From Alitta virens (Eukaryota > Annelida > Polychaeta > Phyllodocida > Nereididae), in contig OW028581.1 of NCBI GenBank assembly GCA_932294295.1, positions 8,912,526 to 8,976,525 on the forward strand: a stretch of 64,000 nt of DNA, written 5' to 3'. A program made the position numbers and the translations under genes. Under the pieces are notes generated by a model, which was not told the origin of the DNA, searched no databases, and was given only the letters and a program-made list of their open reading frames with translations. Of the stretch, positions 23,441 to 64,000 are shown piece by piece. The number at the start of each line of letters is the position of its first letter. Position 1 is the first letter of the stretch.

Positions 23441-23548
23441 TCAGACAGCAACTTTTTTTTTTTTTTTTTACACAAGAAGTGTACATGGTCTGCTCTTTTG
23501 GGAGGATTTGGTGGCCTTGAAAAAGGCCGGGGTTGTTTTGTGGAATCT

Positions 23549-29620: not shown

Positions 29621-29642
29621 ATCAGAAAGATGGAGGAGTAAG
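29615..29642 (+). other. Candidate non-coding leader exon with a 3-codon upstream ORF
   Basis: The exon would be about 28 nt, ending in AG before GTAAGT. Inside it is ATG GAG GAG TAA (29630-29641), a complete Met-Glu-Glu-stop frame in strong context (A at -3, G at +4). After splicing to 33823 its stop would lie only 7 nt before the main ATG. Confidence 0.5.
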
Positions 29643-32947: not shown

Positions 32948-33727
32948 CACTGCCCTTCAAAAGTTTGGAAACGCACTGGACAACACAGCGTTTTGGTTGA
33001 TTCTATTTAAATATCTGGATATGTGATTGCCCAATTAAAACAGGTTATGCAGCCCAAGTCACTGATGAAATATTCGAAATACATATTACATATATTATGT
33101 AATTATCATTTTAATATGCATTTTCACTTGTCTCAGGTGCAAACTATTTTTGAGTAATTGACAAATATTCCATTGCAGTGCCTACTGCAAATAATTAAAG
33201 GTGGTAATCATCTTCATGAGTGTCTTGTTGAGTCATGGAAGAGTTTGTGAACTGTATTTTTAGATATGTCAACAATAAAATGCCCTGTAGAAGTAGAAAA
33301 ACGGCCTTTTCTTCTCTTTTTTAAAACTTGATTAGGGGTTACTATTTTCATCTGTACCTTAGTCAAAGTGAGTGAACCCTAATTGTACATCTCGTGCAAA
33401 TCAAAGTTTCGGTTATCCGTAAAATTTAATATCGCACTTTGGAAGAGTAATAATAGTTGTTAAAACTCTTGCATATAAACAGTTTACTCACAAATACAAT
33501 GATATACCTTTCTACACATTAAAAACATCCTACATTGTTGCATATTTGACAATGTGACACAACACTGTTAGATAAATACCAAGAACACAATTCTGATGTC
33601 TTTTATCTGTGGAATGGACAAACATGATTATTTAACTCTTTGGTCAATTACATGATGAAAGATGAAAAGAACAATATCATCAAAAATGTTGCTACTCTGG
33701 ATATTTCCAAACTGTTGGAGGGCACTG
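32948..33727. mobile_element. Non-autonomous Tc1/mariner-like element
   Basis: The ends are imperfect inverted repeats. The left end starts 'cactgcccttcaaaagtttg'; the right end, read inward, is 'cagtgccctccaacagtttg'. TA follows the right end, as expected for this superfamily. No transposase frame was seen in the roughly 780 bp. Confidence 0.65.
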
Positions 33728-33828
33728 TAATGTCATATAATAGTTAGACTAAATAATCTACACCAGAAGAGGTCACGAGTACTAAAGAGATTTGCCACGC
33801 TATTCTTCTTTTTAAATTTCAGGCCACG

Positions 33829-36800
33829 ATGAGGACTGCATTAATAAATCTTGGTGTCATTTTGGCACTTTGTGCCATAACGGCACAAGGTTCTAAGAGT
33901 AAACAGACATTAAAGGATGGAACTGTAGAGGAAACATCAACAATTGTAGTTCAGGGGGCAACGGAGGAGATCATAGAAGGAAACATTGTTGTCAAAGATG
34001 CCGTCGGATGGAAAGAATGTAACAAGAAATTCAAAGGAGCAAAAGCAAAACTTTGTGTCAAGCACTACAAGGAGCGATACGCCGTCAAGCTAAAGGGTGG
34101 ATCCAGCACAGGAGGAACCACCAGTAGCAGCACTGTCACCACATCAGTGGTCCAGGGTGCTGTTGAAGAAATCATTGAAGGTGATATTGTAGTCAAAGAT
34201 GCAAATGGCTGGAAAGCTTGCAACAAGAAATTCAATGGTGCAAAAGCCACACTTTGCATAAAACACTACAAAGAAAGATACACCGCGAAGGGGAAAGGTG
34301 GTTCCAAAGGCGGAAGCACCACCAGCAGCAGCACTGTCACTACCACTGCAGTTCAAGGCAGTGTTGAGGAAATCATAGAAGGTGATATTGTAGTCAAAGA
34401 TGCAAATGGCTGGAAAGCTTGCAACAAGAAATTCAATGGTGCAAAAGCCACACTTTGCATTAAACACTACAAAGAAAGATACGCCGCGAAGGGGAAAGGT
34501 GGTTCCAAAGGCGGAAGCAGCACTGTCACTTCCACTGTAGTTCAAGGCGGTGTTGAGGAATTCATAGAAGGTGGCATTGTAGTGAAGGATGCAAATGGCT
34601 GGAAGGCTTGCAACAAGAAATTCAAAGTCGCAAAAGCCAAGCTTTGCATCGAGCACTACAAGAAAAGGTATGCTATCTTGCAGAAGGGAGGTTCCACAGG
34701 AGGATCCACCACTACTAGCACCACCACCAGCACTGTCACAACCACAATTGTGCAAGGATCTGTAGAAGAAGTTATAGAGGGCGAAATTGTGATCCGAGAT
34801 GCAAATGGATGGAAACAATGCAACAAAAAATTCCAAGGGTTGAAGGCCCAACTTTGCATCAAGCATTACAAGGCACGTTATGCAGTGAAACTCTCTGGCA
34901 AAGGCTACGGAACAGCTGGTTCAACTACAGATGTGATTGAGACAACAATAATCACTTCTGAGTATCAAGACATCATTGAAGGAGGAATTGTTGTCAAAAC
35001 TCCTTATGGTTGGAAACAATGTCTCAAGAAGTTCAAAGGTGGCAGAAGGCAACGTTGCATCCAGCATTACAAAAGACGCTACACAATCAGGATACGTCAA
35101 CAGAACAGAGCAATTAGACGTAAACTGATATCACGAAAATACAACAGATACGATTACATACTGTGGATAAGCCGAAGGAAACAGTACAGGCGCAGGTGCA
35201 GTAGATTGAGAGGTGGTTTCAGAAGAGCTTGTTTCAGGAGATTCAGGAGGCGATTCGGAGGCCGATGGACCTATAGGAGATGGAAATTAGTGCGTGCACG
35301 CTATTGGGTGGGGTGCCTGAAACTTAAAGGTAGTTCCAGAAGAGCATGCTTAAGGAGATACAGCAGACGGTTTGGAGGACCTAAGGGCTTTGGGGGGTGG
35401 TACAAAAGGACACTCACCTATAGGAAATACTGCCTGAAGCTCAAAGGTAAAACCAGACAAAGCTGTTTGACAAGACTTCGTTTGCGCCTTGGGAAGCGTA
35501 GGGGCTATTGGCGATGGCTGACCAGAAGACGTAAATATCAAAGAACATGCCTCAAAAAGAAAGGAAAGGCAAGAAAAGCCTGCTTGGCAAAATGGCGTAG
35601 AATCTATGGAAGACGAGTAACTTACACTGTATGGCTCCAGCGAATAAAGGGAATAAGGAAGCGGTGCTTACGATTCAGAGGTTTGAGGAGAAGACTGTGT
35701 CTGAGACGTTACAGAATCCGTTTTGGCAAACGCCGTTTCTACCGCCTTTGGCTGAGACGGAGGATAAATTACCAAAGGCGTTGTCTGCATCTGAAGGGTA
35801 AAAGAAGAAGCGCTTGCCTTAAAAGATGGAAAATAACATTTGGAACAAATATTTCATATGGACGCTGGCGAAAGATGAGACTAACTTTCTGGAGAACATG
35901 CATCAGAATGGTTAGGAGGAAGAGAAAGCGATGTCTTGTTATTTATCGACGACGTTTTGGCAGGCGCCAAGGATATGCAAGATTGATTAGAGTTCGAAAC
36001 AGATACAGGAAGAGCTGCTTGAGATTACGTGGCTATAGGAGAAGACAATGTCTTACTAGATGGCGACGGAAATATGGAAGAAGACTTCGCTACAAGTTGT
36101 GGGTACGACGCATTCGTAGATACAGACAGCGTTGCCTCAGAATTAGGAGGAACAGAAGGAGAGCAATGTGCTTAGTCAGATGGAAAGTGCGATACTCTAG
36201 ACGCACTGCTTACATGAATTGGCTAAGATACCGGCGAAGATATTTTCGGTTCTGTCGCAGACTCAAAGGAAAGAAAAGGAAGATCTGTTTGAGGAAGTAT
36301 ACGAGGCGTTATGGAAGACGTGTTATCAGCTATTATTACTGGTTATGGCGTAGATACCGCTACAGCAAACGCTGCAATGGATTGCGTGGCACTGCACAAA
36401 GACTTTGCTTCCGTCGTTATAAAATACGATTTAGTGGGCGCAAATACTATAGGCGTTGGCTTTTGTTCAGACTGCGGTACAGGAGGCGCTGCTTGAGACT
36501 TAAGGGACCTAGGAAATCAAAATGTATTGCACGTTGGGTGAAGCGCTTTGGTAAAAAAAGGGTGCCCTATGGACAATGGCTTATTGCTAGACGTAGACGA
36601 AGAATTTCCTGCATGAGGCTCAAACGCAGGAAAAAGAAAAGGTGCCTGCAACAATATTTTAGTTATTATGGATGGCGTTGGGGATATGGTTATTGGTTGA
36701 TAAGGAGAAGGATATACTACAAGAAATGCAAGAGATTCAGTGGAGTCAGGAGGAGAGCTTGCATAAGACGTCTAAGGAAAATCTATGGAAGACGAGTTCG

Positions 36801-39800
36801 TTACAGACTTTGGTTAAGACGAGTAAGATTATACAGAAGACGTTGTCAACGAAGTACTGGTATTAGAAGGAAAACTTGCTTGAAAAAATGGAGAAGGTTA
36901 TTTGGAAGACGAAGAGTTTATTGGCAATGGCTTATCATAAGAAGGAGGTACAAAAGACGTTGCATGAGACTGAAAGGCAAAAAAAGAGCTGGATGTTTGA
37001 AAATATGGCGGAGGAACTACTACAAGCGACTTTCTTATGTAAGATACACTGGGCGTCGAAGGAGGTTCTGGAAAAGATGTCTGAGGCTCAGAGGTGTCAG
37101 AAGAACTCGCTGCATCTGGAGATGGAGAGTTAGATTCGGAAGCAGAAAGTCATACTTGCGGTGGATAAAGCAAAGAGTGCTCTATAAAAAGAGATGTTTA
37201 AAGTTGAAGGGATCCAACAGAGCAAAGTGTATAAAACGTTACAAGAAACGTTTTGGAAGAAGTGTTAGATATTACATTTGGATGAAAGCAAGAAGCAAAT
37301 ACAGAAGACGCTGCTTGAGGTTAAAAGGACGAAGACAAAGGAGATGTCTCTATTTATGGCGAAGACGTTACTTAGTTCACAGAAGCTATTTAATATGGTT
37401 GAGAAGGAGCCGTTCATATCAAAGAAGATGTTTGAGATATCCAAGGTTAGGCCGACGGCCTTGTCTGAGACGATGGAAGAGAAGATTTGGAAGAAGAAGA
37501 AGCTACATAGTATGGCTCATTCGTGTACGTAATTCCCGGAAACGTTGTTACAGACGGCGTGGATGGCGAAGAAGGCGCTGCCTGCGACGTGTGCAACGAC
37601 AATATCTTAGGCCATTTGGATACAGGCGATGGCAAACCTTAAGAATTCGAGCAAGAAGACGCTGTTTGAGATTTCCAGCACGAAGTTTGAGACGAAACAG
37701 ATGTCTATTCAGATGGCGTCAATACTTCTACAAACTCAAAGGCTACAAATATTATCTATTTGTGCGTCGAAATTACAGAAAGCGATGTCTGAGACTACAA
37801 GGTGCTAGTAGAAAGCGTTGTTTGAGAGTATGGAAGAGAAAATATTCAAAGGCTTACAGATCATATGTACGTTATATGCGACAACGAAAATTAAGGAGAC
37901 GAAGATGCTTCATGTTCCAAGGACTATATCGAAGAAGATGTCTCCGAAACTGGAGAAGACAGTATCTGGTACGAAGAAGTTATGTATGGAATCTATGGCT
38001 CAGGCGTAAATACAGGAAACGGTGTCTTAGATTTAGGGGACGGCGAAGAACTCGATGCCTCAGAAGATTCAGGCGGCGCTTCAGTAGACGTATACCTTTA
38101 GCCCGATGGATGCGACTCAGACAACAATATAGAAAACGTTGTCTAAAGATGAGAGGGGTGAGGCGGAGACGCTGCTTGCAGAGATACAGAAGGCGCTATG
38201 GGCGTCGCAGACCTTACATTACCTGGCTGACTTTGAGAAAAAGATACCGAAAACGGTGCTTGAGACTTTTTGGGCCAGCTAAGCAAAGATGTCTACAGCG
38301 ATGGAGGAGGCGTTTCTTTAGACGAGGCACCTACAGGATATGGTGGTCTAGAAGACGAGTCGTGAGAAGGCGCTGTATGAGACTGAAAGGCTTAGCTCGC
38401 ATACGCTGTTTGAAAAGATGGCGAATTCGATATACAATAAAAAAGATTGTCTACTGGAGGCGCAATCCACGTAAAAGATATGGCTGGCATATCATTCTAA
38501 GACAAAGAAGAAGGCGATGCTTGCGTCTGCGGGGAGAAAGAAGGAGAAAATGCTTACGACAATATCAGCTATATTATAGAAGATATCTTGTGCGACAAAT
38601 GCTGGTTACACTACGCCAAAGGAGACGACTTTGTTCTCAACTTAGAGGACGTAGAAGCCAAAAAAGATGTTTCAGAAGATACAAGGTATACTATAGGAGG
38701 TATCTCAAAAGACTTAGACAATATAAAAGGTACTACACGCAGTATATTCTCAGAACCAAACGAAGACAGACATTACCAAGAGGCTGGGTGATAATAAGGC
38801 GACAGTTAGTCGTACTGAGAAGAATGAGATCACTCATGAGGAGATTACAGTACAAACTCAGAGGTGGAAGAAAAGCACTGGCAGCCAGACAACGACGATG
38901 CATGCGGCTGAGAAGTGTCCAATCTAGGAGACAATGTCTAAATAGATATGCAGTTTACTATCGGAGATACATTACCATTGAAAGGCAGTACAGACGATAC
39001 CGTCAAAGATACAGCCTGATATACAGAAGAATCAGTATTCTGAAGAGAACATATCGACAAAGACGACAAAGGATGCTAGTTCAACTACGAAGAAGAAGGA
39101 GAGCTATTCGCAAGGTTAAAAGAGTACTTAGACAAAGACGAATGGTTGTGCAACGTAGGTTGATACGTTTACGATTGGTCAGGAGGAGATGCAGCCAACT
39201 CAGAGGCATCAGGAGAAGGCGCTGTCTACGACAATATGCTATTCGTTTAAGACGATTCAGAGTGTATTATCGAAGGTACCGTGTGTATTATCGAACATAC
39301 AGAGTCCTGTACAGAAGGTATATAGTGTACTACAGACGATACAGAAGAACTTACAGTAGATATATTGTTACCAGACGAGGCTATAGAATAAGCAATCCTA
39401 TCTTGCAACGCTACATCTATGTTAGAAAGCAGCTAATTGTCAGACGACGCAGATATCGCTATGGAAAGAGAAAGGTCGTACGCCGAAGAATCTTACGTAT
39501 GAAACGAAGCAGGCTCAGAAGGAGAGTGACCAAAGTTCTTCGCAGACAGATTGTTAGACAGCGAAGACAAGTAAAGAGGCTCAAGATAAGATTAATTCGT
39601 TTTACAAAGAGAAAAGCTAACAGGAGAGTTGTAAAGAATGTCAGAAGAAAGTTAATTAGAAGAAAAAGACAAATCAGGCGATTACAAAAACAGATTATAA
39701 GAACCCGACGATATGGGAGAAGGCGGCTTGTCAGAGTTTATCGCAGAGTTGTCAGACGAAGAGTATCACCCCGTAGAATTCTCCGGGTAAGACGAAGAAG

Positions 39801-57800: not shown

Positions 57801-60800
57801 AACACGCAGAGTGATCAGGCGCGTTGTAAGACGAATTGTGAGAAGGCGAAGACCAAGAGGAAGAAGACCAAGGCGTCGTGTCATTGTCAGAAGAATTGTC
57901 ATCCGCAGACGACCAAGACGAAGAAGAACACGCAGAGTGATCAGGCGCGTTGTAAGACGAATTGTCAGAAGGCGAAGACCAAGAGGAAGAAGACCAAGGC
58001 GTCGTGTCATAGTCAGACGAAGAGTCATTGTCATCCGCAGACGCCCAAGACGAAGAAGACCACGCAGAGTGATCAGGCGCGTTGTAAGACGAATTGTCAG
58101 AAGGCGAAGACCAAGAGGAAGAAGACCAAGGCGTCGAGTCATCGTCAGAAGAAGAATTGTCATCCGCAGACGACCAAGACGAAGAAGAACACGCAGAGTG
58201 ATCAGGCGCATTGTAAGACGAATTGTCAGAAGGCGAAGACCAAGAGGAAGAAGACCAAGGCGTCGTGTCATCGTCAGAAGAAGAATTGTCATCCGCAGAC
58301 GACCAAGACGAAGAAGAACACGCAGAGTGATCAGGCGCGTTGTAAGACGAATTGTCGGAAGGCCAAGACCAAGAGGAAGAAGACCAAGGCGTCGTGTCAT
58401 AGTCAGACGAAGAGTCATTGTCATTCGCAGACGACCAAGACGAAGAAGACCACGCAGAGTGATCAGGCGCGTTGTAAGACGAATTGTCAGAAGGCGAAGA
58501 CCAAGAGGAAGAAGACCAAGGCGTCGAGTCATCGTCAGAAGAAGAATTGTCATCCGCAGACGACCAAGAGGAAGAAGAACACGCAGAGTGATCAGGCGCG
58601 TTGTAAGACGAATTGCTAGAAGGCGAAGACCAAGAGGAAGAAGACCAAGGCGTCGTGTCATTATCAGAAGAAGAATTGTCATCCGCAGACGACCAAGACG
58701 AAGAAGAACACGCAGAGTGATCAGGCGCGTTGTAAGACGAATTGTCAGAAGGCGAAGACCAAGAGGAAGAAGACCAAGGCGTCGTGTCATCGTCAGAAGA
58801 CGAATTGTCATTCGCAGACAACCAAGACGAAGAAGACCACGCAGAGTGATCAGGCCCATTGTAAGACGAATTGTCAGAAGGCGAAGACCAAGAGGAAGAA
58901 GACCAAGGCGTCGAGTCATCGTCAGAAGAATTGTCATCCGCAGACGACCAAGACGAAGAAGAACACGCAGAGTGATCAGGCGCGTTGTAAGACGAATTGT
59001 CAGAAGGCGAAGACCAAGAGGAAGAAGACCAAGGCGTCGTGTCATCGTCAGAAGAAGAGTCATTGTCATCCGCAGACGACCAAGACGAAGAAGACCACGC
59101 AGAGTGATCAGGCGCGTTGTAAGACGAATTGTCAGAAGGCGAAGACCAAGAGGAAGAAGACCAAGGCGTCGAGTCATCGTCAGAAGAAGAATTGTCATCC
59201 GCAGACGACCAAGACGAAGAAGAACACGCAGAGTGATCAGGCGCGTTGTAAGACGAATTGTCAGAAGGCGAAGACCAAGAGGAAGAAGACCAAGGCGTCG
59301 TGTCATAGTCAGACGAAGAGTCATTGTCATCCGCAGACGCCCAAGACGAAGAAGACCACGCAGAGTGATCAGGCGCGTTGTAAGACGAATTGTTAGAAGG
59401 CGAAGACCAAGAGGAAGAAGACCAAGGCGTCGTGTCATTGTCAGAAGAAGAATTGTCATCCGCAGACGACCAAGACGAAGAAGACCACGCAGAGTGATCA
59501 GGCGCGTTGTAAGACGAATTGTCAGAAGGCGAAGACCAAGAGGAAGAAGACCAAGGCGTCGAGTCATCGTCAGAAGAAGAATTGTCATCCGCAGACGACC
59601 AAGACGAAGAAGAACACGCAGAGTGATCAGGCGCGTTGTAAGACGAATTGTCAGAAGGCGAAGACCAAGAGGAAGAAGACCAAGGCGTCGAGTCATAGTC
59701 AGACGAAGAGTCATTGTCATCCGCAGACGTCCAAGACGAAGAAGACCACGCAGAGTGATCAGGCGCGTTGTAAGACGAATTGTCAGAAGGCGAAGACCAA
59801 GAGGAAGAAGACCAAGGCGTCGTGTCATCGTCAGAAGAAGAATTGTCATCCGCAGACGACCAAGACGAAGAAGAACACGCAGAGTGATCAGGCGCGTTGT
59901 AAGACGAATTATCGGAAGGCGAAGACCAAGAGGAAGAAGACCAAGGCGTCGTGTCATAGTCAGACGAAGAGTCATTGTCATCCGCAGACGCCCAAGACGA
60001 AGAAGACCACGCAGAGTGATCAGGCGCGTTGTAAGACGAATTGTCAGAAGGCGAAGACCAAGAGGAAGAAGACCAAGGCGTCGAGTCATCGTCAGAAGAA
60101 GAGTCATTGTCATCCGCAGACGACCAAGACGAAGAAGACCACGCAGAGTGATCAGGCGCGTTGTAAGACGAATTGTCAGAAGGCGAAGACCAAGAGGAAG
60201 AAGACCAAGGCGTCGAGTCATCGTCAGAAGAAGAATTGTCATCCGCAGACGACCAAGACGAAGAAGAACACGCAGAGTGATCAGGCGCGTTGTAAGACGA
60301 ATTGTCAGAAGGCGAAGACCAAGAGGAAGAAGACCAAGGCGTCGTGTCATAGTCAGACGAAGAGTCATTGTCATCCGCAGACGCCCAAGACGAAGAAGAC
60401 CACGCAGAGTGATCAGGCGCGTTGTAAGACGAATTGTTAGAAGGCGAAGACCAAGAGGAAGAAGACCAAGGCGTCGTGTCATTGTCAGAAGAAGAATTGT
60501 CATCCGCAGACGACCAAGACGAAGAAGACCACGCAGAGTGATCAGGCGCGTTGTAAGACGAATTGTCAGAAGGCGAAGACCAAGAGGAAGAAGACCAAGG
60601 CGTCGAGTCATCGTCAGAAGAAGAATTGTCATCCGCAGACGACCAAGACGAAGAAGAACACGCAGAGTGATCAGGCGCGTTGTAAGACGAATTGTCAGAA
60701 GGCGAAGACCAAGAGGAAGAAGACCAAGGCGTCGAGTCATAGTCAGACGAAGAGTCATTGTCATCCGCAGACGTCCAAGACGAAGAAGACCACGCAGAGT

Positions 60801-63800
60801 GATCAGGCGCGTTGTAAGACGAATTGTCAGAAGGCGAAGACCAAGAGGAAGAAGACCAAGGCGTCGTGTCATCGTCAGAAGAAGAATTGTCATCCGCAGA
60901 CGACCAAGACGAAGAAGAACACGCAGAGTGATCAGGCGCGTTGTAAGACGAATTATCGGAAGGCGAAGACCAAGAGGAAGAAGACCAAGGCGTCGTGTCA
61001 TAGTCAGACGAAGAGTCATTGTCATCCGCAGACGCCCAAGACGAAGAAGACCACGCAGAGTGATCAGGCGCGTTGTAAGACGAATTGTCAGAAGGCGAAG
61101 ACCAAGAGGAAGAAGACCAAGGCGTCGAGTCATCGTCAGAAGAAGAATTGTCATCCGCAGACGACCAAGACGAAGAAGAACACGCAGAGTGATCAGGCGC
61201 GTTGTAAGACGAATTGTCAGAAGGCGAAGACCAAGAGGAAGAAGACCAAGGCGTCGTGTCATCGTCAGAAGACGAATTGTCATTCGCAGACGACCAAGAC
61301 GAAGAAGACCACGCAGAGTGATCAGGCGCGTTGTAAGACGAATTGTCAGAAGGCGAAGACCAAGAGGAAGAAGACCAAGGCGTCGAGTCATCGTCAGAAG
61401 AAGAATTGTCATCCGCAGACGACCAAGACGAAGAAGAACACGCAGAGTGATCAGGCGCGTTGTAAGACGAATTGTCAGAAGGGGAAGACCAAGAGGAAGA
61501 AGACCAAGGCGTCGTGTCATAGTCAGACGAAGAGTCATTGTCATCCGCAGACGCCCAAGAGGAAGAAGACCACGCAGAGTGATCAGGCGCGTTGTAAGAC
61601 GAATTGTCAGAAGGCGAAGACCAAGAGGAAGAAGACCAAGGCGTCGAGTCATCGTCAGAAGAAGAATTGTCATCCGCAGACGACCAAGACGAAGAAGAAC
61701 ACGCAGAGTGATCAGGCGCATTGTAAGACGAATTGTCAGAAGGCGAAGACCAAGAGGAAGAAGACCAAGGCGTCGTGTCATCGTCAGAAGAAGAATTGTC
61801 ATCCGCAGACGACCAAGACGAAGAAGAACACGCAGAGTGATCAGGCGCGTTGTAAGACGAATTGTCGGAAGGCCAAGACCAAGAGGAAGAAGACCAAGGC
61901 GTCGTGTCATAGTCAGACGAAGAGTCATTGTCATCCGCAGACGACCAAGACGAAGAAGAACACGCAGAGTGATCAGGCGCGTTGTAAGACGAATTGTCAG
62001 AAGGCGAAGACCAAGAGGAAGAAGACCAAGGCGTCGTGTCATCGTCAGAAGACGAATTGTCATTCGCAGACAACCAAGACGAAGAAGACCACGCAGAGTG
62101 ATCAGGCGCATTGTAAGACGAATTGTCAGAAGGCGAAGACCAAGAGGAAGAAGACCAAGGCGTCGAGTCATCGTCAGAAGAAGAATTGTCATCCGCAGAC
62201 GACCAAGACGAAGAAGAACACGCAGAGTGATCAGGCGCGTTGTAAGACGAATTGTCAGAAGGCGAAGACCAAGAGGAAGAAGACCAAGGCGTCGAGTCAT
62301 AGTCAGACGAAGAGTCATTGTCATCCGCAGACGTCCAAGACGAAGAAGACCACGCAGAGTGATCAGGCGCGTTGTAAGACGAATTGTCAGAAGGCGAAGA
62401 CCAAGAGGAAGAAGACCAAGGCGTCGTGTCATCGTCAGAAGAAGAATTGTCATCCGCAGACGACCAAGACGAAGAAGAACACGCAGAGTGATCAGGCGCG
62501 TTGTAAGACGAATTATCGGAAGGCGAAGACCAAGAGGAAGAAGACCAAGGCGTCGTGTCATAGTCAGACGAAGAGTCATTGTCATCCGCAGACGCCCAAG
62601 ACGAAGAAGACCACGCAGAGTGATCAGGCGCGTTGTAAGACGAATTGTCAGAAGGCGAAGACCAAGAGGAAGAAGACCAAGGCGTCGAGTCATCGTCAGA
62701 AGAAGAATTGTCATCCGCAGACGACCAAGACGAAGAAGAACACGCAGAGTGATCAGGCGCGTTGTAAGAAGAATTGTCAGAAGGCGAAGACCAAGAGGAA
62801 GAAGACCAAGGCGTCGTGTCATCGTCAGAAGACGAATTGTCATTCGCAGACGACCAAGACGAAGAAGACCACGCAGAGTGATCAGGCGCGTTGTAAGACG
62901 AATTGTCAGAAGGCGAAGACCAAGAGGAAGAAGACCAAGGCGTCGAGTCATCGTCAGAAGAAGAATTGTCATCCGCAGACGACCAAGACGAAGAAGAACA
63001 CGCAGAGTGATCAGGCGCGTTGTAAGACGAATTGTCAGAAGGGGAAGACCAAGAGGAAGAAGACCAAGGCGTCGTGTCATAGTCAGACGAAGAGTCATTG
63101 TCATCCGCAGACGCCCAAGACGAAGAAGACCACGCAGAGTGATCAGGCGCGTTGTAAGACGAATTGTCAGAAGGCGAAGACCAAGAGGAAGAAGACCAAG
63201 GCGTCGAGTCATCGTCAGAAGAAGAATTGTCATCCGCAGACGACCAAGACGAAGAAGAACACGCAGAGTGATCAGGCGCATTGTAAGACGAATTGTCAGA
63301 AGGCGAAGACCAAGAGGAAGAAGACCAAGGCGTCGTGTCATCGTCAGAAGAAGAATTGTCATCCGCAGACGACCAAGACGAAGAAGAACACGCAGAGTGA
63401 TCAGGCGCGTTGTAAGACGAATTGTCGGAAGGCCAAGACCAAGAGGAAGAAGACCAAGGCGTCGTGTCATAGTCAGACGAAGAGTCATTGTCATCCGCAG
63501 ACGACCAAGACGAAGAAGAACACGCAGAGTGATCAGGCGCGTTGTAAGACGAATTGTCAGAAGGCGAAGACCAAGAGGAAGAAGACCAAGGCGTCGTGTC
63601 ATCGTCAGAAGACGAATTGTCATTCGCAGACAACCAAGACGAAGAAGACCACGCAGAGTGATCAGGCGCATTGTAAGACGAATTGTCAGAAGGCGAAGAC
63701 CAAGAGGAAGAAGACCAAGGCGTCGAGTCATCGTCAGAAGAAGAATTGTCATCCGCAGACGACCAAGACGAAGAAGAACACGCAGAGTGATCAGGCGCGT

Positions 63801-64000
63801 TGTAAGACGAATTGTCAGAAGGCGAAGACCAAGAGGAAGAAGACCAAGGCGTCGTGTCATCGTCAGAAGAAGAGTCATTGTCATCCGCAGACGACCAAGA
63901 CGAAGAAGACCACGCAGAGTGATCAGGCGCGTTGTAAGACGAATTGTCAGAAGGCGAAGACCAAGAGGAAGAAGACCAAGGCGTCGAGTCATCGTCAGAA
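33829..64000 (+). CDS. Giant secreted arginine-rich repeat protein, 3' end beyond window
   Basis: One frame runs from ATG 33829 to the window edge: 10,057 complete codons, no stop, no intron needed. The ATG is the first after an in-frame TAG at 33745, has A at -3, and lies six bases after a splice acceptor. Residues 1-21 are a signal peptide (MRTALINLGVILALCAITAQG, cut before SKSK). Next come six two-Cys repeats (about 40-424), about 32 Arg-rich two-Cys repeats (445-1804), 115-residue repeats (1890-2425) and, from residue 2593 on, about 170 units of 43/44 residues: 26 Arg, 12 Val/Ile, 4 Pro and 1 Gly per 43. AGA supplies 14 of those 26 Arg codons. Differences between units are mostly silent in this frame. 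The visible part would exceed a megadalton with an extreme positive charge. I recognise no family. An extracellular polycation that binds acidic glycans, a structural fibre, or a precursor cut at polybasic sites are inferences. Confidence 0.92.
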   Translation, partial: MRTALINLGVILALCAITAQGSKSKQTLKDGTVEETSTIVVQGATEEIIEGNIVVKDAVGWKECNKKFKGAKAKLCVKHYKERYAVKLKGGSSTGGTTSSSTVTTSVVQGAVEEIIEGDIVVKDANGWKACNKKFNGAKATLCIKHYKERYTAKGKGGSKGGSTTSSSTVTTTAVQGSVEEIIEGDIVVKDANGWKACNKKFNGAKATLCIKHYKERYAAKGKGGSKGGSSTVTSTVVQGGVEEFIEGGIVVKDANGWKACNKKFKVAKAKLCIEHYKKRYAILQKGGSTGGSTTTSTTTSTVTTTIVQGSVEEVIEGEIVIRDANGWKQCNKKFQGLKAQLCIKHYKARYAVKLSGKGYGTAGSTTDVIETTIITSEYQDIIEGGIVVKTPYGWKQCLKKFKGGRRQRCIQHYKRRYTIRIRQQNRAIRRKLISRKYNRYDYILWISRRKQYRRRCSRLRGGFRRACFRRFRRRFGGRWTYRRWKLVRARYWVGCLKLKGSSRRACLRRYSRRFGGPKGFGGWYKRTLTYRKYCLKLKGKTRQSCLTRLRLRLGKRRGYWRWLTRRRKYQRTCLKKKGKARKACLAKWRRIYGRRVTYTVWLQRIKGIRKRCLRFRGLRRRLCLRRYRIRFGKRRFYRLWLRRRINYQRRCLHLKGKRRSACLKRWKITFGTNISYGRWRKMRLTFWRTCIRMVRRKRKRCLVIYRRRFGRRQGYARLIRVRNRYRKSCLRLRGYRRRQCLTRWRRKYGRRLRYKLWVRRIRRYRQRCLRIRRNRRRAMCLVRWKVRYSRRTAYMNWLRYRRRYFRFCRRLKGKKRKICLRKYTRRYGRRVISYYYWLWRRYRYSKRCNGLRGTAQRLCFRRYKIRFSGRKYYRRWLLFRLRYRRRCLRLKGPRKSKCIARWVKRFGKKRVPYGQWLIARRRRRISCMRLKRRKKKRCLQQYFSYYGWRWGYGYWLIRRRIYYKKCKRFSGVRRRACIRRLRKIYGRRVRYRLWLRRVRLYRRRCQRSTGIRRKTCLKKWRRLFGRRRVYWQWLIIRRRYKRRCMRLKGKKRAGCLKIWRRNYYKRLSYVRYTGRRRRFWKRCLRLRGVRRTRCIWRWRVRFGSRKSYLRWIKQRVLYKKRCLKLKGSNRAKCIKRYKKRFGRSVRYYIWMKARSKYRRRCLRLKGRRQRRCLYLWRRRYLVHRSYLIWLRRSRSYQRRCLRYPRLGRRPCLRRWKRRFGRRRSYIVWLIRVRNSRKRCYRRRGWRRRRCLRRVQRQYLRPFGYRRWQTLRIRARRRCLRFPARSLRRNRCLFRWRQYFYKLKGYKYYLFVRRNYRKRCLRLQGASRKRCLRVWKRKYSKAYRSYVRYMRQRKLRRRRCFMFQGLYRRRCLRNWRRQYLVRRSYVWNLWLRRKYRKRCLRFRGRRRTRCLRRFRRRFSRRIPLARWMRLRQQYRKRCLKMRGVRRRRCLQRYRRRYGRRRPYITWLTLRKRYRKRCLRLFGPAKQRCLQRWRRRFFRRGTYRIWWSRRRVVRRRCMRLKGLARIRCLKRWRIRYTIKKIVYWRRNPRKRYGWHIILRQRRRRCLRLRGERRRKCLRQYQLYYRRYLVRQMLVTLRQRRRLCSQLRGRRSQKRCFRRYKVYYRRYLKRLRQYKRYYTQYILRTKRRQTLPRGWVIIRRQLVVLRRMRSLMRRLQYKLRGGRKALAARQRRCMRLRSVQSRRQCLNRYAVYYRRYITIERQYRRYRQRYSLIYRRISILKRTYRQRRQRMLVQLRRRRRAIRKVKRVLRQRRMVVQRRLIRLRLVRRRCSQLRGIRRRRCLRQYAIRLRRFRVYYRRYRVYYRTYRVLYRRYIVYYRRYRRTYSRYIVTRRGYRISNPILQRYIYVRKQLIVRRRRYRYGKRKVVRRRILRMKRSRLRRRVTKVLRRQIVRQRRQVKRLKIRLIRFTKRKANRRVVKNVRRKLIRRKRQIRRLQKQIIRTRRYGRRRLVRVYRRVVRRRVSPRRILRVRRRRGRRGLRRRRRRILRISKRRIRRRVIRVLQRRIVRRQRQVRRLGVRITRLRKRKANKRVLRVSLRKVVTRRRQIRRLRTQILQTRRYGRKRLIRVYRRVVRRRVSPCRILRVRRRRGRRGLRRRRRRILRISKRRIIRRVIRVLQRRIFRRQRQVRRLRVRIIRLRKRKANKRVLRVSLRKVVTRRRQIRRLRTQILQTRRYGRKRLIRVYRRVVRRRVSPRRILRVRRRRGRRGLRRRRRRILRISKRRIRRRVIRVLQRRIVRRQKQVRRLRVRIIRLRKRKANKRVLRVSLRKVVTRRRQIRRLRTQILQTRRYGRKRLIRVYRRVVRRRVSPRRILRVRRRRGRRGLRRRRRRILQISKRRIRRRVIRLLQRRIVRRQKQVRQLRVRIIRLRKRKANKRRVRVLLRKVVRRRRQIRRLRLQTVRTRRYRKRQLIRVYRRALRRRIALRRYRQNRKLRLQRVLRRRLIQRRWQTRRLRTQIISLRRQRRLNGVLRRQLVYKRRQISKLRFRINTLIRRRVSRRVVQRYQRRVLSQRRIIRQLRTRIVRLQQTRIRGTGRNKRILRVLQRRLASQRILIRRLAKRIRSVRRACRKRPNRRVIQRRIVIRRRPRRRRPRRVIRRVVRRIVRRRRPRGRRPRRRVIVRRRIVIRRRPRRRRPRRVIRRIVRRIVRRRRPRGRRPRRRVIVRRRIVIRRRPRRRRPRRVIRRVVKRIVRRRRPRGRRPRRRVIVRRRIVIRRRPRRRRPRRVISRVVRRTVRRRRPRGRRPRRRVIVRRRIVIRRRPRRRRTRRVIRRVVRRIVRRRRPRGRRPRRRVIVRRRVIVIRRRPRRRRPRRVIRRVVRRIFRRRRPRGRRPRRRVIVRRRVIVIRRRPRRRRPRRVIRHVVRRIVRRRRPRGRRPRRRVIVRRRIVIRRRPRRRRPRRVIRRIVRRIVRRRRPRGRRPRRRVIVRRRIVIRRRPKRRRTRRVIRRVVRRIVRRRRPRGRRPRRRVIVRRRVIVIRRRPRRRRPRRVIRHVVRRIVRRRRPRGRRPRRRVIVRRRIVIRRRTRGRRPRRRVIVRRRIVIRRRPRRRRPRRVIRRIVRRIVRRRRPRGRRQRRRVIVRRRIVIRRRPKRRRTRRVIRRIVRRIVRRRRPRGRRPRRRVIVRRRVIVIHRRLRRRRPRRVIRRVVRRIVRRRRPRRRRPRRRVIVRRRVIVVVRRKGRRGIRRRPRRRFIRRRPRRRRTRRVIRRVVRRIVRRRRPRGRRTRRVIRRVVRRIVRRRRPRGRRPRRRVIVRRRIVIRRRPRRRRPRRVIRRVVRRIVRRRRPRGRRPRRRVIVRRRIVIRRRPRRRRTRRVIRRVVRRIVRRRRPRGRRPRRRVIVRRRIVIRRQPRRRRPRRVIRRVVRRIVRRRRPRGRRPRRRVIVRRRIVIRRRPRGRRTRRVIRRVVRRIVRRRRPRGRRPRRRVIVRRRIVIRRRPRRRRTRRVIRRVVRRIVRRRRPRGRRPRRRVIVRRRIVIRRQPRRRRPRRVIRRIVRRIVRRRRPRGRRPRRRVIVRRRRIVIRRRPRRRRTRRVIRRVVRRIVRRRRPRGRRPRRRVIVRRRIVIRRRPRRRRTRRVIRRVVRRIVRRRRPRGRRPRRRVIVRRRVIVIRRRPRRRRPRRVIRRVVRRIVRRRRPRGRRPRRRVIVRRRIVIRRRPRRRRPRRVIRRIVRRIVRRRRPRGRRPRRRVIVRRRIVIRRRPRRRRTRRVIRRVVRRIVGRRRPRGRRPRRRVIVRRRVIVIRRRPRRRRPRRVIRRVVRRIVRRRRPRGRRPRRRVIVRRRIVIRRRPRGRRTRRVIRRVVRRIVRRRRPRGRRPRRRVIVRRRIVIRRRPRRRRTRRVIRRVVRRIVRRRRPRGRRPRRRVIVRRRIVIRRQPRRRRPRRVIRRIVRRIVRRRRPRGRRPRRRVIVRRRIVIRRRPRRRRTRRVIRRVVRRIVRRRRPRGRRPRRRVIVRRRVIVIRRQPRRRRPRRVIRRVVRRIVRRRRPRGRRPRRRVIVRRRIVIRRRPRRRRTRRVIRRVVRRIVRRRRPRGRRPRRRVIVRRRVIVIRRRPRRRRPRRVIRRVVRRIVRRRRPRGRRPRRRVIVRRRIVIRRRPRRRRPRRVIRRVVRRIVRRRRPRGRRPRRRVIVRRRIVIRRRPRRRRTRRVIRRVVRRIVRRRRPRGKRPRRRVIVRRRVIVIRRRPRRRRPRRVIRRVVRRIVRRRRPRGRRPRRRVIVRRRVIVIRRRPRRRRPRRVIRRVVRQIVRRRRPRGRRPRRRVIVRRRIVIRRRPRRRRTRRVIRRIVRRIVRRRRPRGRRPRRRVIIRRRIVIRRRPRRRRTRRVIRRVVRRIVGRPRPRGRRPRRRVIVRRRVIVIRRRPRRRRPRRVIRRVVRRIVRRRRPRGRRPRRRVIVRRRIVIRRRPRRRRPRRVIRRVVRRIVRRRRPRGRRPRRRVIVRRRIVIRRRPRGRRTRRVIRRVVRRIVRRRRPRGRRPRRRVIVRRRIVIRRRPRRRRTRRVIRRVVRRIVRRRRPRGRRPRRRVIVRRRIVIRRQPRRRRPRRVIRRIVRRIVRRRRPRGRRPRRRVIVRRRIVIRRRPRRRRTRRVIRRVVRRIVRRRRPRGRRPRRRVIVRRRVIVIRRQPRRRRPRRVIRRVVRRIVRRRRPRGRRPRRRVIVRRRIVIRRRPRRRRTRRVIRRVVRRIVRRRRPRGRRPRRRVIVRRRVIVIRRRPRRRRPRRVIRRVVRRIVRRRRPRGRRPRRRVIVRRRIVIRRRPRRRRPRRVIRRVVRRIVRRRRPRGRRPRRRVIVRRRIVIRRRPRRRRTRRVIRRVVRRIVRRRRPRGKRPRRRVIVRRRVIVIRRRPRRRRPRRVIRRVVRRIVRRRRPRGRRPRRRVIVRRRVIVIRRRPRRRRPRRVIRRVVRQIVRRRRPRGRRPRRRVIVRRRIVIRRRPRRRRTRRVIRRIVRRIVRRRRPRGRRPRRRVIIRRRIVIRRRPRRRRTRRVIRRVVRRIVGRPRPRGRRPRRRVIVRRRVIVIRRRPRRRRPRRVIRRVVRRIVRRRRPRGRRPRRRVIVRRRIVIRRRPRRRRPRRVIRRVVRRIVRRRRPRGRRPRRRVIVRRRIVIRRRPRGRRTRRVIRRVVRRIVRRRRPRGRRPRRRVIVRRRIVIRRRPRRRRTRRVIRRVVRRIVRRRRPRGRRPRRRVIVRRRIVIRRQPRRRRPRRVIRRIVRRIVRRRRPRGRRPRRRVIVRRRVIVIRRRPRRRRTRRVIRRVVRRIVRRRRPRGRRPRRRVIVRRRVIVIRRRPRRRRTRRVIRRVVRRIVRRRRPRGRRPRRRVIVRRRVIVIRRRPRQRRPRRVIRRVVRRIVRRRRPRGRRPRRRVIVRRRIVIRRRPRPRRVIRRVVRRIVRRRRPRGRRPRRRVIVRRRIVIRRRPRRRRTRRVIRRVVRRIVRRRRPRGKRPRRRVIVRRRVIVIRRRPRRRRPRRVIRRVVRRIVRRRRPRGRRPRRRVIVRRRVIVIRRRPRRRRPRRVIRRVVRRIVRRRRPRGRRPRRRVIVRRRIVIRRRPRRRRPRRVIRRVVRQIVRRRRPRGRRPRRRVIVRRRRIVIRRRPRRRRTRRVIRRVVRRIVRRRRPRGRRPRRRVIVRRRIVIRRRPRRRRTRRVIRRVVRQIVRRRRPRGRRPRRRVIVRRRVIVIRRRPRRRRPRRVIRRVVRRIVRRRRPRGRRPRRRVIVRRRIVIRRRPRRRRPRRVIRRIVRRIVRRRRPRGRRPRRRVIVRRRIVIRRRPRRRRTRRVIRRVVRRIVGRRRPRGRRPRRRVIVRRRVIVIRRRPRRRRPRRVIRRVVRRIVRRRRPRGRRPRRRVIVRRRIVIRRRPRGRRTRRVIRRVVRRIVRRRRPRGRRPRRRVIVRRRIVIRRRPRRRRTRRVIRRVVRRIVRRRRPRGRRPRRRVIVRRRIVIRRQPRRRRPRRVIRRIVRRIVRRRRPRGRRPRRRVIVRRRIVIRRRPRRRRTRRVIRRVVRRIVRRRRPRGRRPRRRVIVRRRVIVIRRRPRRRRPRRVIRRVVRRIVRRRRPRGRRPRRRVIVRRRIVIRRRPRRRRTRRVIRRVVRRIVRRRRPRGRRPRRRVIVRRRVIVIRRRPRRRRPRRVIRRVVRRIVRRRRPRGRRPRRRVIVRRRIVIRRRPRRRRPRRVIRRVVRRIVRRQRPRGRRPRRRVIVRRRIVIRRRPRRRRTRRVIRRVVRRIVGRRRPRGKRPRRRVIVRRRVIVIRRRPRRRRPRRVIRRVVRRIVRRRRPRGRRPRRRVIVRRRVIVIRRRPRRRRPRRVIRRVVRQIVRRRRPRGRRPRRRVIVRRRIVIRRRPRRRRTRRVIRRIVRRIVRRRRPRGRRPRRRVIIRRRIVIRRRPRRRRTRRVIRRVVRRIVGRPRPRGRRPRRRVIVRRRVIVIRRRPRRRRPRRVIRRVVRRIVRRRRPRGRRPRRRVIVRRRIVIRRRPRPRRVIRRVVRRIVRRRRPRGRRPSRRVIVRRRIVIRRRPRRRRTRRVIRRVVRRIVRRRRPRGKRPRRRVIVRRRIVIRRRPRRRRPRRVIRRVVRRIVRRRRPRGRRPRRRVIVRRRVIVIRRRPRRRRPRRVIRRVVRRIVRRRRPRGRRPRRRVIVRRRIVIRRRPRRRRTRRVIRRVVRRIVRRRRPRGRRPRRRVIVRRRIVIRRRPRRRRTRRVIRRVVRRIVRRRRPRGRRPRRRVIVRRRIVIRRRPRRRRPRRVIRRVVRRIVRRRRPRGRRPRRRVIVRRRIVIRRRPRRRRTRRVIRRVVRRIVRRRRPRGRRPRRRVIVRRRVIVIRRRPRRRRPRRVIRRVVRRIVRRRRPRGRRPRRRVIVRRRIVIRRQPRRRRPRRVIRRIVRRIVRRRRPRGRRPRRRVIVRRRIVIRRRPRRRRTRRVIRRVVRRIVRRRRPRGRRPRRRVIVRRRVIVIRRRPTRRRPRRVIRRVVRRIVRRRRPRGRRPRRRVIVRRRIVIRRRPRRRRPRRVIRRVVRRIVRRRRPRGRRPRRRVIVRGRIVIRRRPRRRRTRRVIRRVVRRIVRRRRPRGRRPRRRVIVRRRVIVIRRRPRRRRPRRVIRRVVRQIVRRRRPRGRRPRRRVIVRRRVIVIRRRPSRRRPRRVIRRVVRRIVRRRRPRGRRPRRRVIVRRRIVIRRRPRRRRTRRVIRRVVRRIVRRRRPRGRRPRRRVIVRRRVIVIRRRPRRRRPRRVIRRVVRRIVRRRRPRGRRPRRRVIVRRRIVIRRRPRRRRTRRVIRRVVRRIVRRRRPRGRRPRRRVIVRRRIVIRRRPRRRRPRRVIRRVVRRIVRRRRPRGRRPRRRVIVRRRIVIRRRPRGRRTRRVIRRVVRRIVRRRRPKGRRPRRRVIVRRRIVIRRRPRRRRTRRVIRRVVRRIVRRRRPRGRRPRRRVIVRRRVIVIRRRPRRRRPRRVIRRVVRRIVRRRRPRGRRPRHRVVRRRIVIRRRPRRRRTRRVIRRVVRRIVRRRRPRGRRPRRRVIVKRRIVIRRRPRRRRPRRVIRRIVRRIVRRRRPRGRRPRRRVIVRRRIVIRRRPRRRRTRRVIRRVVRRIVGRRRPRGRRPRRRVIVRRRVIVIRRRPRRRRPRRVIRRVVRRIVRRQRPRGRRPRRRVIVRRRIVIRRRPRRRRPPRVIRRVVRRIVRRRRPRGRRPRRRVIVRRRVIVIRRRPRRRRPRRVIRRVVRRIVRRRRPRGRRPRRRVIVRRRIVIRRRPRRRRPRRVIRRVVRRIVRRRRPRGRRPRRRVIVRRRIVIRRRPRGRRTRRVIRRVVRRIVRRRRPRGRRPRRRVIVRRIVIRRRPRRRRTRRVIRRVVRRIVRRRRPRGRRPRRRVIVRRRIVIRRQPRRRRPRRVIRRIVRRIVRRRRTRGRRPRRRVIVRRRIVIRRRPRRRRTRRVIRRVVRRIVRRRRPRGRRPRRRVIVRRRVIVIRRRPRRRRPRRVIRRVVRRIVRRRRPRGRRPRRRVIVRRRIVIRRRPRRRRPRRVIRRVVRRIVRRRRPRGRRPRRRVIVRRRIVIRRRPRGRRTRRVIRRVVRRIVRRRRPRGRRPRRRVIVRRIVIRRRPRRRRTRRVIRRVVRRIVRRRRPRGRRPRRRVIVRRRVIVIRRRPRRRRPRRVIRRVVRRIVRRRRPRGRRPRRRVIVRRRIVIRRRPRRRRTRRVIRRIVRRIVRRRRPRGRRPRRRVIVRRRIVIRRRPRRRRTRRVIRRVVRRIVGRPRPRGRRPRRRVIVRRRVIVIRRRPRRRRPRRVIRRVVRRIVRRRRPRGRRPRRRVIVRRRIVIRRRPRGRRTRRVIRRVVRRIARRRRPRGRRPRRRVIIRRRIVIRRRPRRRRTRRVIRRVVRRIVRRRRPRGRRPRRRVIVRRRIVIRRQPRRRRPRRVIRPIVRRIVRRRRPRGRRPRRRVIVRRIVIRRRPRRRRTRRVIRRVVRRIVRRRRPRGRRPRRRVIVRRRVIVIRRRPRRRRPRRVIRRVVRRIVRRRRPRGRRPRRRVIVRRRIVIRRRPRRRRTRRVIRRVVRRIVRRRRPRGRRPRRRVIVRRRVIVIRRRPRRRRPRRVIRRVVRRIVRRRRPRGRRPRRRVIVRRRIVIRRRPRRRRPRRVIRRVVRRIVRRRRPRGRRPRRRVIVRRRIVIRRRPRRRRTRRVIRRVVRRIVRRRRPRGRRPRRRVIVRRRVIVIRRRPRRRRPRRVIRRVVRRIVRRRRPRGRRPRRRVIVRRRIVIRRRPRRRRTRRVIRRVVRRIIGRRRPRGRRPRRRVIVRRRVIVIRRRPRRRRPRRVIRRVVRRIVRRRRPRGRRPRRRVIVRRRVIVIRRRPRRRRPRRVIRRVVRRIVRRRRPRGRRPRRRVIVRRRIVIRRRPRRRRTRRVIRRVVRRIVRRRRPRGRRPRRRVIVRRRVIVIRRRPRRRRPRRVIRRVVRRIVRRRRPRGRRPRRRVIVRRRIVIRRRPRRRRPRRVIRRVVRRIVRRRRPRGRRPRRRVIVRRRIVIRRRPRRRRTRRVIRRVVRRIVRRRRPRGRRPRRRVIVRRRVIVIRRRPRRRRPRRVIRRVVRRIVRRRRPRGRRPRRRVIVRRRIVIRRRPRRRRTRRVIRRVVRRIIGRRRPRGRRPRRRVIVRRRVIVIRRRPRRRRPRRVIRRVVRRIVRRRRPRGRRPRRRVIVRRRIVIRRRPRRRRTRRVIRRVVRRIVRRRRPRGRRPRRRVIVRRRIVIRRRPRRRRPRRVIRRVVRRIVRRRRPRGRRPRRRVIVRRRIVIRRRPRRRRTRRVIRRVVRRIVRRGRPRGRRPRRRVIVRRRVIVIRRRPRGRRPRRVIRRVVRRIVRRRRPRGRRPRRRVIVRRRIVIRRRPRRRRTRRVIRRIVRRIVRRRRPRGRRPRRRVIVRRRIVIRRRPRRRRTRRVIRRVVRRIVGRPRPRGRRPRRRVIVRRRVIVIRRRPRRRRTRRVIRRVVRRIVRRRRPRGRRPRRRVIVRRRIVIRRQPRRRRPRRVIRRIVRRIVRRRRPRGRRPRRRVIVRRRIVIRRRPRRRRTRRVIRRVVRRIVRRRRPRGRRPRRRVIVRRRVIVIRRRPRRRRPRRVIRRVVRRIVRRRRPRGRRPRRRVIVRRRIVIRRRPRRRRTRRVIRRVVRRIIGRRRPRGRRPRRRVIVRRRVIVIRRRPRRRRPRRVIRRVVRRIVRRRRPRGRRPRRRVIVRRRIVIRRRPRRRRTRRVIRRVVRRIVRRRRPRGRRPRRRVIVRRRIVIRRRPRRRRPRRVIRRVVRRIVRRRRPRGRRPRRRVIVRRRIVIRRRPRRRRTRRVIRRVVRRIVRRGRPRGRRPRRRVIVRRRVIVIRRRPRRRRPRRVIRRVVRRIVRRRRPRGRRPRRRVIVRRRIVIRRRPRRRRTRRVIRRIVRRIVRRRRPRGRRPRRRVIVRRRIVIRRRPRRRRTRRVIRRVVRRIVGRPRPRGRRPRRRVIVRRRVIVIRRRPRRRRTRRVIRRVVRRIVRRRRPRGRRPRRRVIVRRRIVIRRQPRRRRPRRVIRRIVRRIVRRRRPRGRRPRRRVIVRRRIVIRRRPRRRRTRRVIRRVVRRIVRRRRPRGRRPRRRVIVRRRVIVIRRRPRRRRPRRVIRRVVRRIVRRRRPRGRRPRRRVIVR
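33946..35100 (+). repeat. Six N-terminal two-cysteine repeats
   Basis: Repeats start at 33946, 34147, 34348, 34537, 34747 and 34948 (63-70 residues each). The core is VQGxVEEIIEGxIVVKDA, then GWKxCNKKFxGAKAxLCIKH (C-x11-C), then YKxRYA and a Gly/Ser/Thr linker. Repeats 2 and 3 are almost identical in DNA, so they are a recent duplication. The sixth lacks the linker, changes to CLKKFKGGRRQRC and leads into the Arg-rich section, linking the two repeat types. Confidence 0.93.
35161..39240 (+). repeat. About 32 Arg-rich two-cysteine repeats
   Basis: Each unit of roughly 36-45 residues has a C-x10-C core such as CLRLKGKRRSAC or CLRLRGVRRTRC, then a basic stretch with Trp/Tyr and Phe-Gly (RRWRRRFGRR) and Y-x-x-W-L before the next unit. 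The cores align with CNKKFKGAKAKLC of the N-terminal repeats, with Lys replaced by Arg. Later units (after about 38500) become longer and richer in Tyr. Units differ strongly, so this part is old. The paired cysteines could form one disulphide per unit, which suits a secreted protein. Confidence 0.92.
39496..41103 (+). repeat. 345-bp (115-residue) coding tandem repeat
   Basis: The word 'cggataagcaagcg' or a variant recurs at 39496 (diverged), 39841, 40186, 40531 and 40876, exactly 345 bp apart. Units read RRYGRKRLIRVYRRVVRRRV, SPRRILRVRRRRGRRG, and RVIRVLQRRIVRRQRQVRRL. They are almost free of Cys and Trp. Regularly spaced Val/Ile/Leu could allow helices. The middle copies are nearly identical, the outer ones diverged. 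Confidence 0.92.
45210..49470 (+). repeat. 1,950-bp higher-order repeat, two near-identical copies
   Basis: Rare variants recur 1,950 bp apart: 'gaattgtcattcgcagacaa' at about 45437, 47387 and 49337; 'gtcatcatcagaagaag' at 46723 and 48673; 'gaggaaaaagacc' near 46307 and 48257. 1,950 bp equals ten 129-bp plus five 132-bp units (650 residues). The third copy departs after about 150 bp. Confidence 0.85.
60660..63855 (+). repeat. 1,560-bp higher-order repeat, two near-identical copies
   Basis: The variant 'ccgcagacgtccaagacg' is at 60765 and 62325, 1,560 bp apart (12 units, eight of 129 and four of 132). The intervening sequence repeats with only a few single-base differences that I noticed (for example near 61209/62769 and 61561/63121). 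An older related spacing of 1,044 bp (8 units) separates 59721 from 60765. Confidence 0.85.

Follow-up and report, generated by a model that had tools for sequence, protein, structure and literature searches.

In the window, the 64,000-nucleotide stretch of Alitta virens DNA analysed here, a plus-strand frame that opens at position 33829 continues to 63999 as 10,057 codons. The six-frame ORF listing shows it without a stop and still open at the window edge. A preliminary description had claimed more than 10,000 uninterrupted codons and had proposed a longer contig as the way to find the stop codon. When the following 60 kb of the same chromosome are added, the first in-frame stop, a TAG, follows codon 12,846, so that the earlier claim understated the length. 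The last codon ends at C9:8984891, 8,366 nt past the window. The 38.5-kb frame is free of N along its whole length, and an independent six-frame search recovers it as 12,870 codons from stop to stop. The predicted protein contains 6,780 arginines among its 12,846 residues (Arg 53%, Val 14%, Ile 11%, Pro 7%), with a mass of ~1,696 kDa (about 1.7 MDa) and a net charge (K + R − D − E) of approximately +6,970.

Table 1. Features of the window (plus-strand numbering; boundaries of exon, intron and signal peptide are predicted).
Feature	Position	Strand	Remarks
MADF domain	21799-22572	+	Pfam
DDE_Tnp_4	23552-24169	-	Pfam
TATA box TATAAAAA	29583..29590	+	29 nt upstream of the conserved exon-1 motif
Non-coding 5′ exon	29612..29642	+	predicted start; donor GTAAGT at 29643
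Three-codon upstream ORF ATGGAGGAGTAA	29630-29641	+	ATG GAG GAG TAA; occupies the last part of exon 1
5′ UTR intron	29643..33822	+	boundaries predicted from sequence
Polypyrimidine tract and splice acceptor TTCTTCTTTTTAAATTTCAG	33803..33822	+	common to all 11 copies
Signal peptide MRTALINLGVILALCAITAQG	33829..33891	+	similar sequence starts all 11 copies and P0001; predicted cleavage point
Six N-terminal modules, Lys-rich	33961..35088	+	present again in ten paralogous loci
39-aa two-Cys modules	35161..39273	+	regular up to about 38640, sparser beyond
Arg-rich transition region	39274..41598	+	repeat analysis and translation
43/44-aa (129/132-bp) tandem array VIVRRRIVIRRRPRRRRPRRVIRRVVRRIVRRRRPRGRRPRRR	41599..64000	+	59% Arg; ~7.9 kb more beyond the window

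The putative promoter and 5′ exon are shared with the paralogous copies described below. TATAAA lies 29–30 nt upstream of the exon-1 motif in 10 of 11 copies (eight copies were aligned). The motif itself, TGCAG[TA]CTCATC...GAG[GA]A[AG]TAAG/GT[AG]A, extends through the donor (slash) and is likewise present in 10 of the 11. Upstream of the C10 copy it was not found within 3,000 nt, and 6.7 kb contained at best a weak, chance-like match. A pyrimidine-rich tract ending in CAG directly precedes the start codon in every copy. The upstream ORF, which possibly serves translational control, is kept as ATGGAG[GAG/AAA]TAA in nine of the 10 motif-bearing copies and reads ATC in C7b, an interrupted copy. 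From donor to ATG the distance is 4,186 nt in the window copy versus 240–321 nt in the nine other motif-bearing copies, making the 5′ intron 13–17 times longer here. On the 3′ side of the stop, from about 8370 nt past the window, AAAG/GTAAGC is followed by TTTTTTGCAG and then by ATTAAA, and the C10 copy has a similar layout; this arrangement suggests a small 3′ UTR intron after the stop codon.

The predicted chain changes character along its length. A hydrophobic leader, called as a signal peptide by inspection, precedes six modules of roughly 63–70 aa each that have the core [IV]EG.I.[VI]...GWK.C..KFKG.....C..HYK.RY, cysteines 12 apart (C-x11-C) and Gly/Ser/Thr spacers between them. At about codon 445 the two-Cys modules switch to a 39-aa type, mostly C-x10-C, with the consensus rrWLrrRrrYRrRCLRLkGkrRrrCLrRWRRRFGrRrsY (26 modules), and the whole frame holds 28 exact C-x10-C pairs. 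The C-x10-C repeat of the preliminary description therefore fits most of the 39-aa modules and does not fit the first six repeats. The two-Cys modules look like putative disulphide-closed helical hairpins. Within the transition region, a 345-bp (115-aa) repeat is present in four copies (39731-41117).

The array itself starts at codon 2591 and is ~94% homogeneous. Its units, of which 166 align within the window and 216 when the downstream part is included, are 40, 42, 43 or 44 aa long, plus fused units. The array lacks Cys and almost lacks Lys; the last 7,357 residues in the window (2,701–10,057) contain 11 Lys versus 4,337 Arg. Along the chain, Arg climbs from 3% (residues 1–420) through 33% (421–1600) and 40% (1601–2590) to 59% (2591–12690), and over the same four stretches Lys declines from 14% through 9% and 6% to 0%. 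The earlier characterization of the protein as Arg-rich does not apply to its start. The C-terminal domain (residues 12691–12846) is unlike the array, with 13% Arg, 21% Pro and 18% Trp+Tyr+Phe. It is rich in Tyr, Pro, Phe and Gly, and contains WFRKQC...C, a final two-Cys module, as well as the tail CTCKCRPAQ. The whole chain has 1,406 furin-type R-X-[KR]-R sites, none of them in residues 1–420.

The non-array part of the frame (codons 1–2590) contains no stops, versus a mean of 159 and a minimum of 126 in 300 first-order Markov sequences, and the other five frames of this region contain 91–179. As the preliminary description had expected, shadow frames are reported opposite the giant frame: the window ORF listing includes a minus-strand ORF of 7,460 aa. 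Such frames are open because the repeat unit is a multiple of three. An antisense gene was considered and rejected, no signal peptide or conserved ends being seen in the antisense frames.

Searching the worm's own genome (671 Mb, 23 contigs) at the DNA level and with the N-terminal protein sequence, where locus counts are lower bounds, gives one and the same set of at least 11 loci: C2, C6 (three), C7 (two), C8, C9, C10 and C12 (two). The C9 copy is the window copy, and there are ten paralogous loci besides. C-terminal domain matches fall at the same 11 loci and at a lone 197-codon frame on C11 (C11:29104456-29104827), for which the own-genome N-terminal search detected no partner. The N- and C-terminal ends share one open frame at five of the 11 loci, four of them above 10,000 codons (C9, 12,870; C6 at 37.53 Mb, 12,203; C2, 11,213; C7 at 20.35 Mb, 10,295) and the fifth, C10, with 4,981. 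The genome thereby holds three further exons longer than 30 kb in addition to the 38.5-kb window copy. The remaining six loci are interrupted, because their N- and C-terminal matches fall in different frames (N/C frame codons: C8, 10,000/3,220; C7 at 11.1 Mb, 5,119/5,233; C6 at 37.36 Mb, 2,611/8,073; C6 at 37.44 Mb, 1,254/3,181; C12 at 19.8 Mb, 3,583/1,122; C12 at 20.8 Mb, 207/1,302). In the parts of interrupted copies that were read in phase, four stops occur in C6b and a single one in C7b ahead of its frame change; all five are TGA. We read the coexistence of intact and interrupted loci as birth and death within one family. Three tandem copies, two interrupted and one (12,203 codons) intact, lie within ~210 kb at C6:37357311-37566923. 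The array of C9 has a period of 43 residues and that of C10 a period of 30; in C7a, C7b, C8 and C2 the period is 51 or a multiple of 51. Arrays of all periods contain 48–59% Arg with Val/Ile pairs and Pro, so that composition has been kept across differing units.

To compare the copies, dN/dS was calculated (NG86) over the first 1,800 residues of eight of the 11 copies (C6b, C6c and C12b left out), with 10 of the 28 pairs giving no dS. The ratio is 0.19–0.21 in eight pairs with dS of about 1.1–1.3 and 0.34–0.57 in seven close pairs. The values of 0.073–0.090 obtained for C9 versus three copies are only rough because their dS of 2.9–4.1 is saturated.

Selection within the arrays was assessed from variant types among units (216, 44, 101, 55 and 58 in five arrays) that were chosen via in-frame protein anchors. 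This choice favors units in frame, and related arrays do not supply independent variant types. The window array has 55 variant types, including no nonsense types versus 3.2 expected (P 0.016) and 22 synonymous types versus 14.7 expected (P 0.011). Nonsense types are absent from all five arrays, where 3.7, 0.9, 2.3, 2.6 and 1.1 were expected (sum about 10.6). Taken array by array, C9 (P 0.009) and C7a (P 0.001) have a clear synonymous excess, and C2 (P 0.10) and C8 (P 0.14) a weak one. The C10 array has no excess (4 versus 4.6 expected), which, with the weak values of C8 and C2, weighs against the polycation reading set out below. So does a synonymous excess in antisense frame −2 of C7a and C2 (P 0.02 for each). 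The variant test alone thus leaves this frame standing, and we assign the strand from both ends of the protein together with the splice and promoter signals. The window-copy gene contains 1,117 CGA codons, each one transition away from TGA. Across the five arrays there are no CGA to TGA types versus 11 types of the mirror CpG change, CGA to CAA, an outcome with a chance of about 0.0005 if the two were equal and independent, which in related arrays they are not; the corresponding counts in the interrupted C6b copy are 1 and 3. All 145 gap runs among C9 array units are multiples of three (3, 6 or 9 nt), the units having been picked by in-frame anchors.

These data bear on whether the frame might be fortuitous, i.e. 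satellite DNA or a pseudogene that stays open because its repeat unit is a multiple of three. Such an origin would fit the ~94% homogeneity of the array, the open antisense frames and the interruption of six of the 11 loci. We nevertheless find it very improbable: 2,590 non-array codons are stop-free where about 159 stops are expected, dN/dS is well below 1, the promoter, exon 1 and acceptor are common to the copies, and a unique C-terminal domain is met in frame past more than 10,000 array codons. Furthermore, the five arrays lack nonsense variants, whereas the part of the interrupted C6b copy that was read has four in-phase TGA codons. We conclude from the sequence that the window-copy frame is a gene, one member of a multi-copy family, rather than the shadow of a satellite. 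The earlier proposal of one Arg-rich coding exon exceeding 10,000 codons, with a predicted secreted product, is supported, as far as sequence can tell, by the acceptor before the ATG, by the TATA box, 5′ exon and signal peptide common to the copies, by paralogues with both ends in one frame, and by an array that stays open into the conserved C-terminal domain.

A related possibility is that the coding exon is real and the mRNA shorter, with parts of the array spliced out in frame or array lengths differing widely between haplotypes, such that a 12,846-residue product would be rare or absent. The array does appear to change length readily, given its units of 40, 42, 43 and 44 aa and its fused units. 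We see only a slim chance of this, since at four loci one frame exceeding 10,000 codons still contains both ends, a state that selection would not maintain were the array spliced out.

A search of 5.8 billion proteins, in which the best 8,000 word-sharing candidates were scored, gave one relative at E ≤ 0.001. This protein, P0001, is 248 aa long, comes from a 1,327-bp ENA contig and is 44% identical over 107 aligned columns. It resembles the window copy in having a signal peptide, a TLKDGTV motif and a GWK-C-KKFKGAK-C-HYK-Y module followed by Arg-rich C-x10-C modules, and differs in being a fragment with one N-terminal module rather than six. As a query, residues 1–112 of P0001 matched only P0001 itself (51 candidates scored), and a longer query gave no protein match at E ≤ 10 among the best 7,999 candidates scored. 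No relative was found in viral contigs (84 pattern stretches) or prokaryote genome contigs (98), and scanning the window for Rfam families and tRNAs gave no hits. Summed over the whole protein, the scores for PF18091 (RBR E3 ligase C-terminal domain; 56.9 bits versus a cut-off of 23, and 30.1 for the C10 copy) and PF19977 (xRRM; 30.2 versus 23.7 bits) exceed their thresholds. No stretch passes alone in either case, and both memberships were rejected as repeat-sum artefacts. TIGR01120 and the other Pfam and NCBIfam matches in the repeats were judged to be artefacts of repeats or composition. In residues 1–2657, a portion of the array and the final 158 residues, Pfam detected no C-type lectin, VWD, EGF, TIL or C8 domain. 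Among solved structures, residues 1–424 had no match at E ≤ 1, and the 39-aa modules had one weak match, 1bte_A (E 0.7). The titles and abstracts listed from the open-licence literature yielded no description of such a protein family. The statement that no described family has this layout therefore stands for the sets searched, in which the Pfam matches are sums of weak repeats and no solved structure matches convincingly.

The largest coding exons of titin and MUC16 are larger than SACS exon 10 and still shorter than the 38.5-kb exon described here. Exon 10 of SACS, at 11,487 bp, is termed the longest among vertebrates in the accessible text of one report (PMC8745260). All of these are likewise single giant coding exons. 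In this non-exhaustive comparison, with the SACS value as the sole printed figure, the window-copy exon is longer than the largest usually cited, as had been supposed. If the predictions are correct, the exons described here would rank with the longest animal coding exons on record.

What would such a protein do? Once secreted, so highly charged a chain is bound to encounter polyanions, and the near absence of Lys from the Arg-rich array favors pairing of guanidinium groups with sulphate or phosphate over lysine chemistry. We therefore propose, as the leading reading and one that we hold to be evenly poised between right and wrong, that the product is a giant secreted guanidinium polycation that condenses and cross-links polyanions in a glue, mucus or tube matrix. 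The protein would be packed in the secretory granules of gland cells with polyanions (sulphated glycans, phosphoproteins or nucleic acid), its Arg guanidinium groups pairing with their sulphate or phosphate. Runs of Val/Ile and Pro would keep the strands of the chain extended, cross-links between chains would form through the terminal Cys modules, and the released product would be a cohesive, water-insoluble glue, mucus or tube matrix. Unequal crossover would lengthen, shorten and homogenize the arrays, and length and charge would stay high because each added unit means more binding sites. Several observations argue against the polycation reading. With 1,406 furin-type sites the chain might not survive the secretory route intact, the interruption of six of the 11 copies implies that not every copy has to yield an intact giant protein, and the domains usual in animal adhesive proteins are absent from the scanned parts.

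The furin-type sites would also suit a different use of the chain, as a polyprotein precursor that proprotein convertases cut into many short, membrane-active Arg/Val/Ile/Pro peptides with antimicrobial or deterrent activity in mucus. Identical tandem units are typical of peptide precursors, the cleavage sites spare residues 1–420, and units such as RRVIRRVVRRIVRRRRP resemble the engineered Arg/Val/Trp antimicrobial peptides WLBU2/PLG0206. The units, however, have no regular spacer or single clean cleavage site, and cutting at the existing sites would shred the chain. High Arg is kept across units of 43, 30 and 51 aa where an exact peptide sequence is not, and the presence of Cys modules and of a conserved C-terminal domain speaks for a molecule that stays whole. 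We regard a precursor as unlikely. The extreme positive charge and the preference for Arg over Lys (11 Lys versus 4,337 Arg, as noted above) could belong to a counter-ion or condensing scaffold that packs a stored polyanion in granules or templates mineral or silica, rather than forming glue or mucus. No mineral-binding motif or partner was identified, and we consider this role distinctly unlikely. Finally, an Arg content comparable to that of protamines raises the idea of a sperm nuclear basic protein that condenses DNA. To this we give almost no credence, given the hydrophobic signal peptide in all 11 copies, where a nuclear protein would have none, together with the conserved disulphide modules, the Tyr/Pro C-terminal domain and the megadalton size.

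The polycation reading has parallels in known secretions. Mlig-ap1 (Macrostomum lignano adhesion protein 1) is described, in the accessible text of two reports, as 5,407 aa long with more than 3,600 aa of Lys/Arg-rich sequence; these regions have a very high calculated isoelectric point and are poorly reached by trypsin-based proteomics and short reads (PMC6410801, PMC8621496). It is a cohesion protein, RNAi shows that it is needed in adhesion, and attachment is blocked by heparin, according to the same portion of the first (PMC6410801). By analogy, Mlig-ap1 is the closest working precedent for the proposed function: both are giant, repetitive, secreted proteins, in our case by prediction, with long, strongly basic regions (53% Arg and approximately +6,970 in the window copy), a likeness drawn from description rather than from residue-by-residue alignment. 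The Mlig-ap1 core, in contrast, has C-type lectin, VWD and EGF domains, none of which is present in the scanned parts here. It also mixes Lys and Arg, whereas the window copy has an array nearly without Lys, two-Cys modules and more than twice the length.

Sabellariid cement proteins are small proteins. Pc-1 to Pc-5 resemble the predicted product as secreted annelid polycations thought to coacervate with polyanions. The available part of one account describes the sandcastle-worm cement as packed by complex coacervation of oppositely charged proteins and sulphated polysaccharide, with Gly-rich, DOPA-containing Pc-1 and Pc-2 and His-rich Pc-4 and Pc-5 (PMC12621633). This composition (Gly-rich DOPA, poly-Ser, His-rich) is not found in the window copy, in which Arg, Val, Ile and Pro dominate. 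A snail mucus gel is likewise depicted as a network of positive protein and sulphated glycosaminoglycan, although the available portion of that source names no giant Arg-repeat protein and the word 'arginine' is absent from its main text (PMC9873654). Conversely, the accessible text on the cement glands of Sabellaria alveolata states that no sulphated biopolymers were detected (PMC6262867), and the polyanion therefore cannot be assumed.

At the level of the family, we suggest, with a confidence just short of even, that these loci represent an undescribed animal family with repeated evolution of one-exon genes exceeding 10,000 codons. Their products would be secreted polyelectrolytes, roughly half arginine, that form a guanidinium–polyanion material, perhaps widespread and overlooked. 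Such ‘poly-arginine’ secretions may have escaped notice because short-read assembly, gene prediction and tryptic mass spectrometry tend to miss them. If made as predicted, the products would be among the most highly charged large proteins known, encoded by coding exons of 30–38 kb. Exons of this size would show how far transcription, export and translation can be stretched for one exon, and the chains would test intact secretion in the presence of many furin sites as well as the stop-free upkeep of a repeat array. The intact and decayed copies, with their independently amplified arrays, would form a natural control set for selection on low-complexity protein, and the family may represent a new class of polycation material for use under water.

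Elsewhere in the window, remnants of a PIF/Harbinger-like transposon occupy 21387-24169 (Pfam), and a 1.1-kb GTA triplet repeat at 3893-5002 is the source of a spurious 430-aa minus-strand ORF. On the mitochondrial contig C23, COX1 is open only with TGA read as Trp, and the conserved protein agrees with Lys for AAA and Ser for AGA; these readings exclude the echinoderm and flatworm mitochondrial codes. The gene order there is nad3-S-nad2-C-cox1-N-cox2-G, in which tRNAs Ser-tct, Cys, Asn and Gly were found and the protein genes were placed by eye. The order cox1-trnN-cox2 is usual in annelids and suggests an annelid here. The order nad2-C-cox1-N-cox2-G is unusual, and a large A+T-rich non-coding stretch follows cox2 and trnG.
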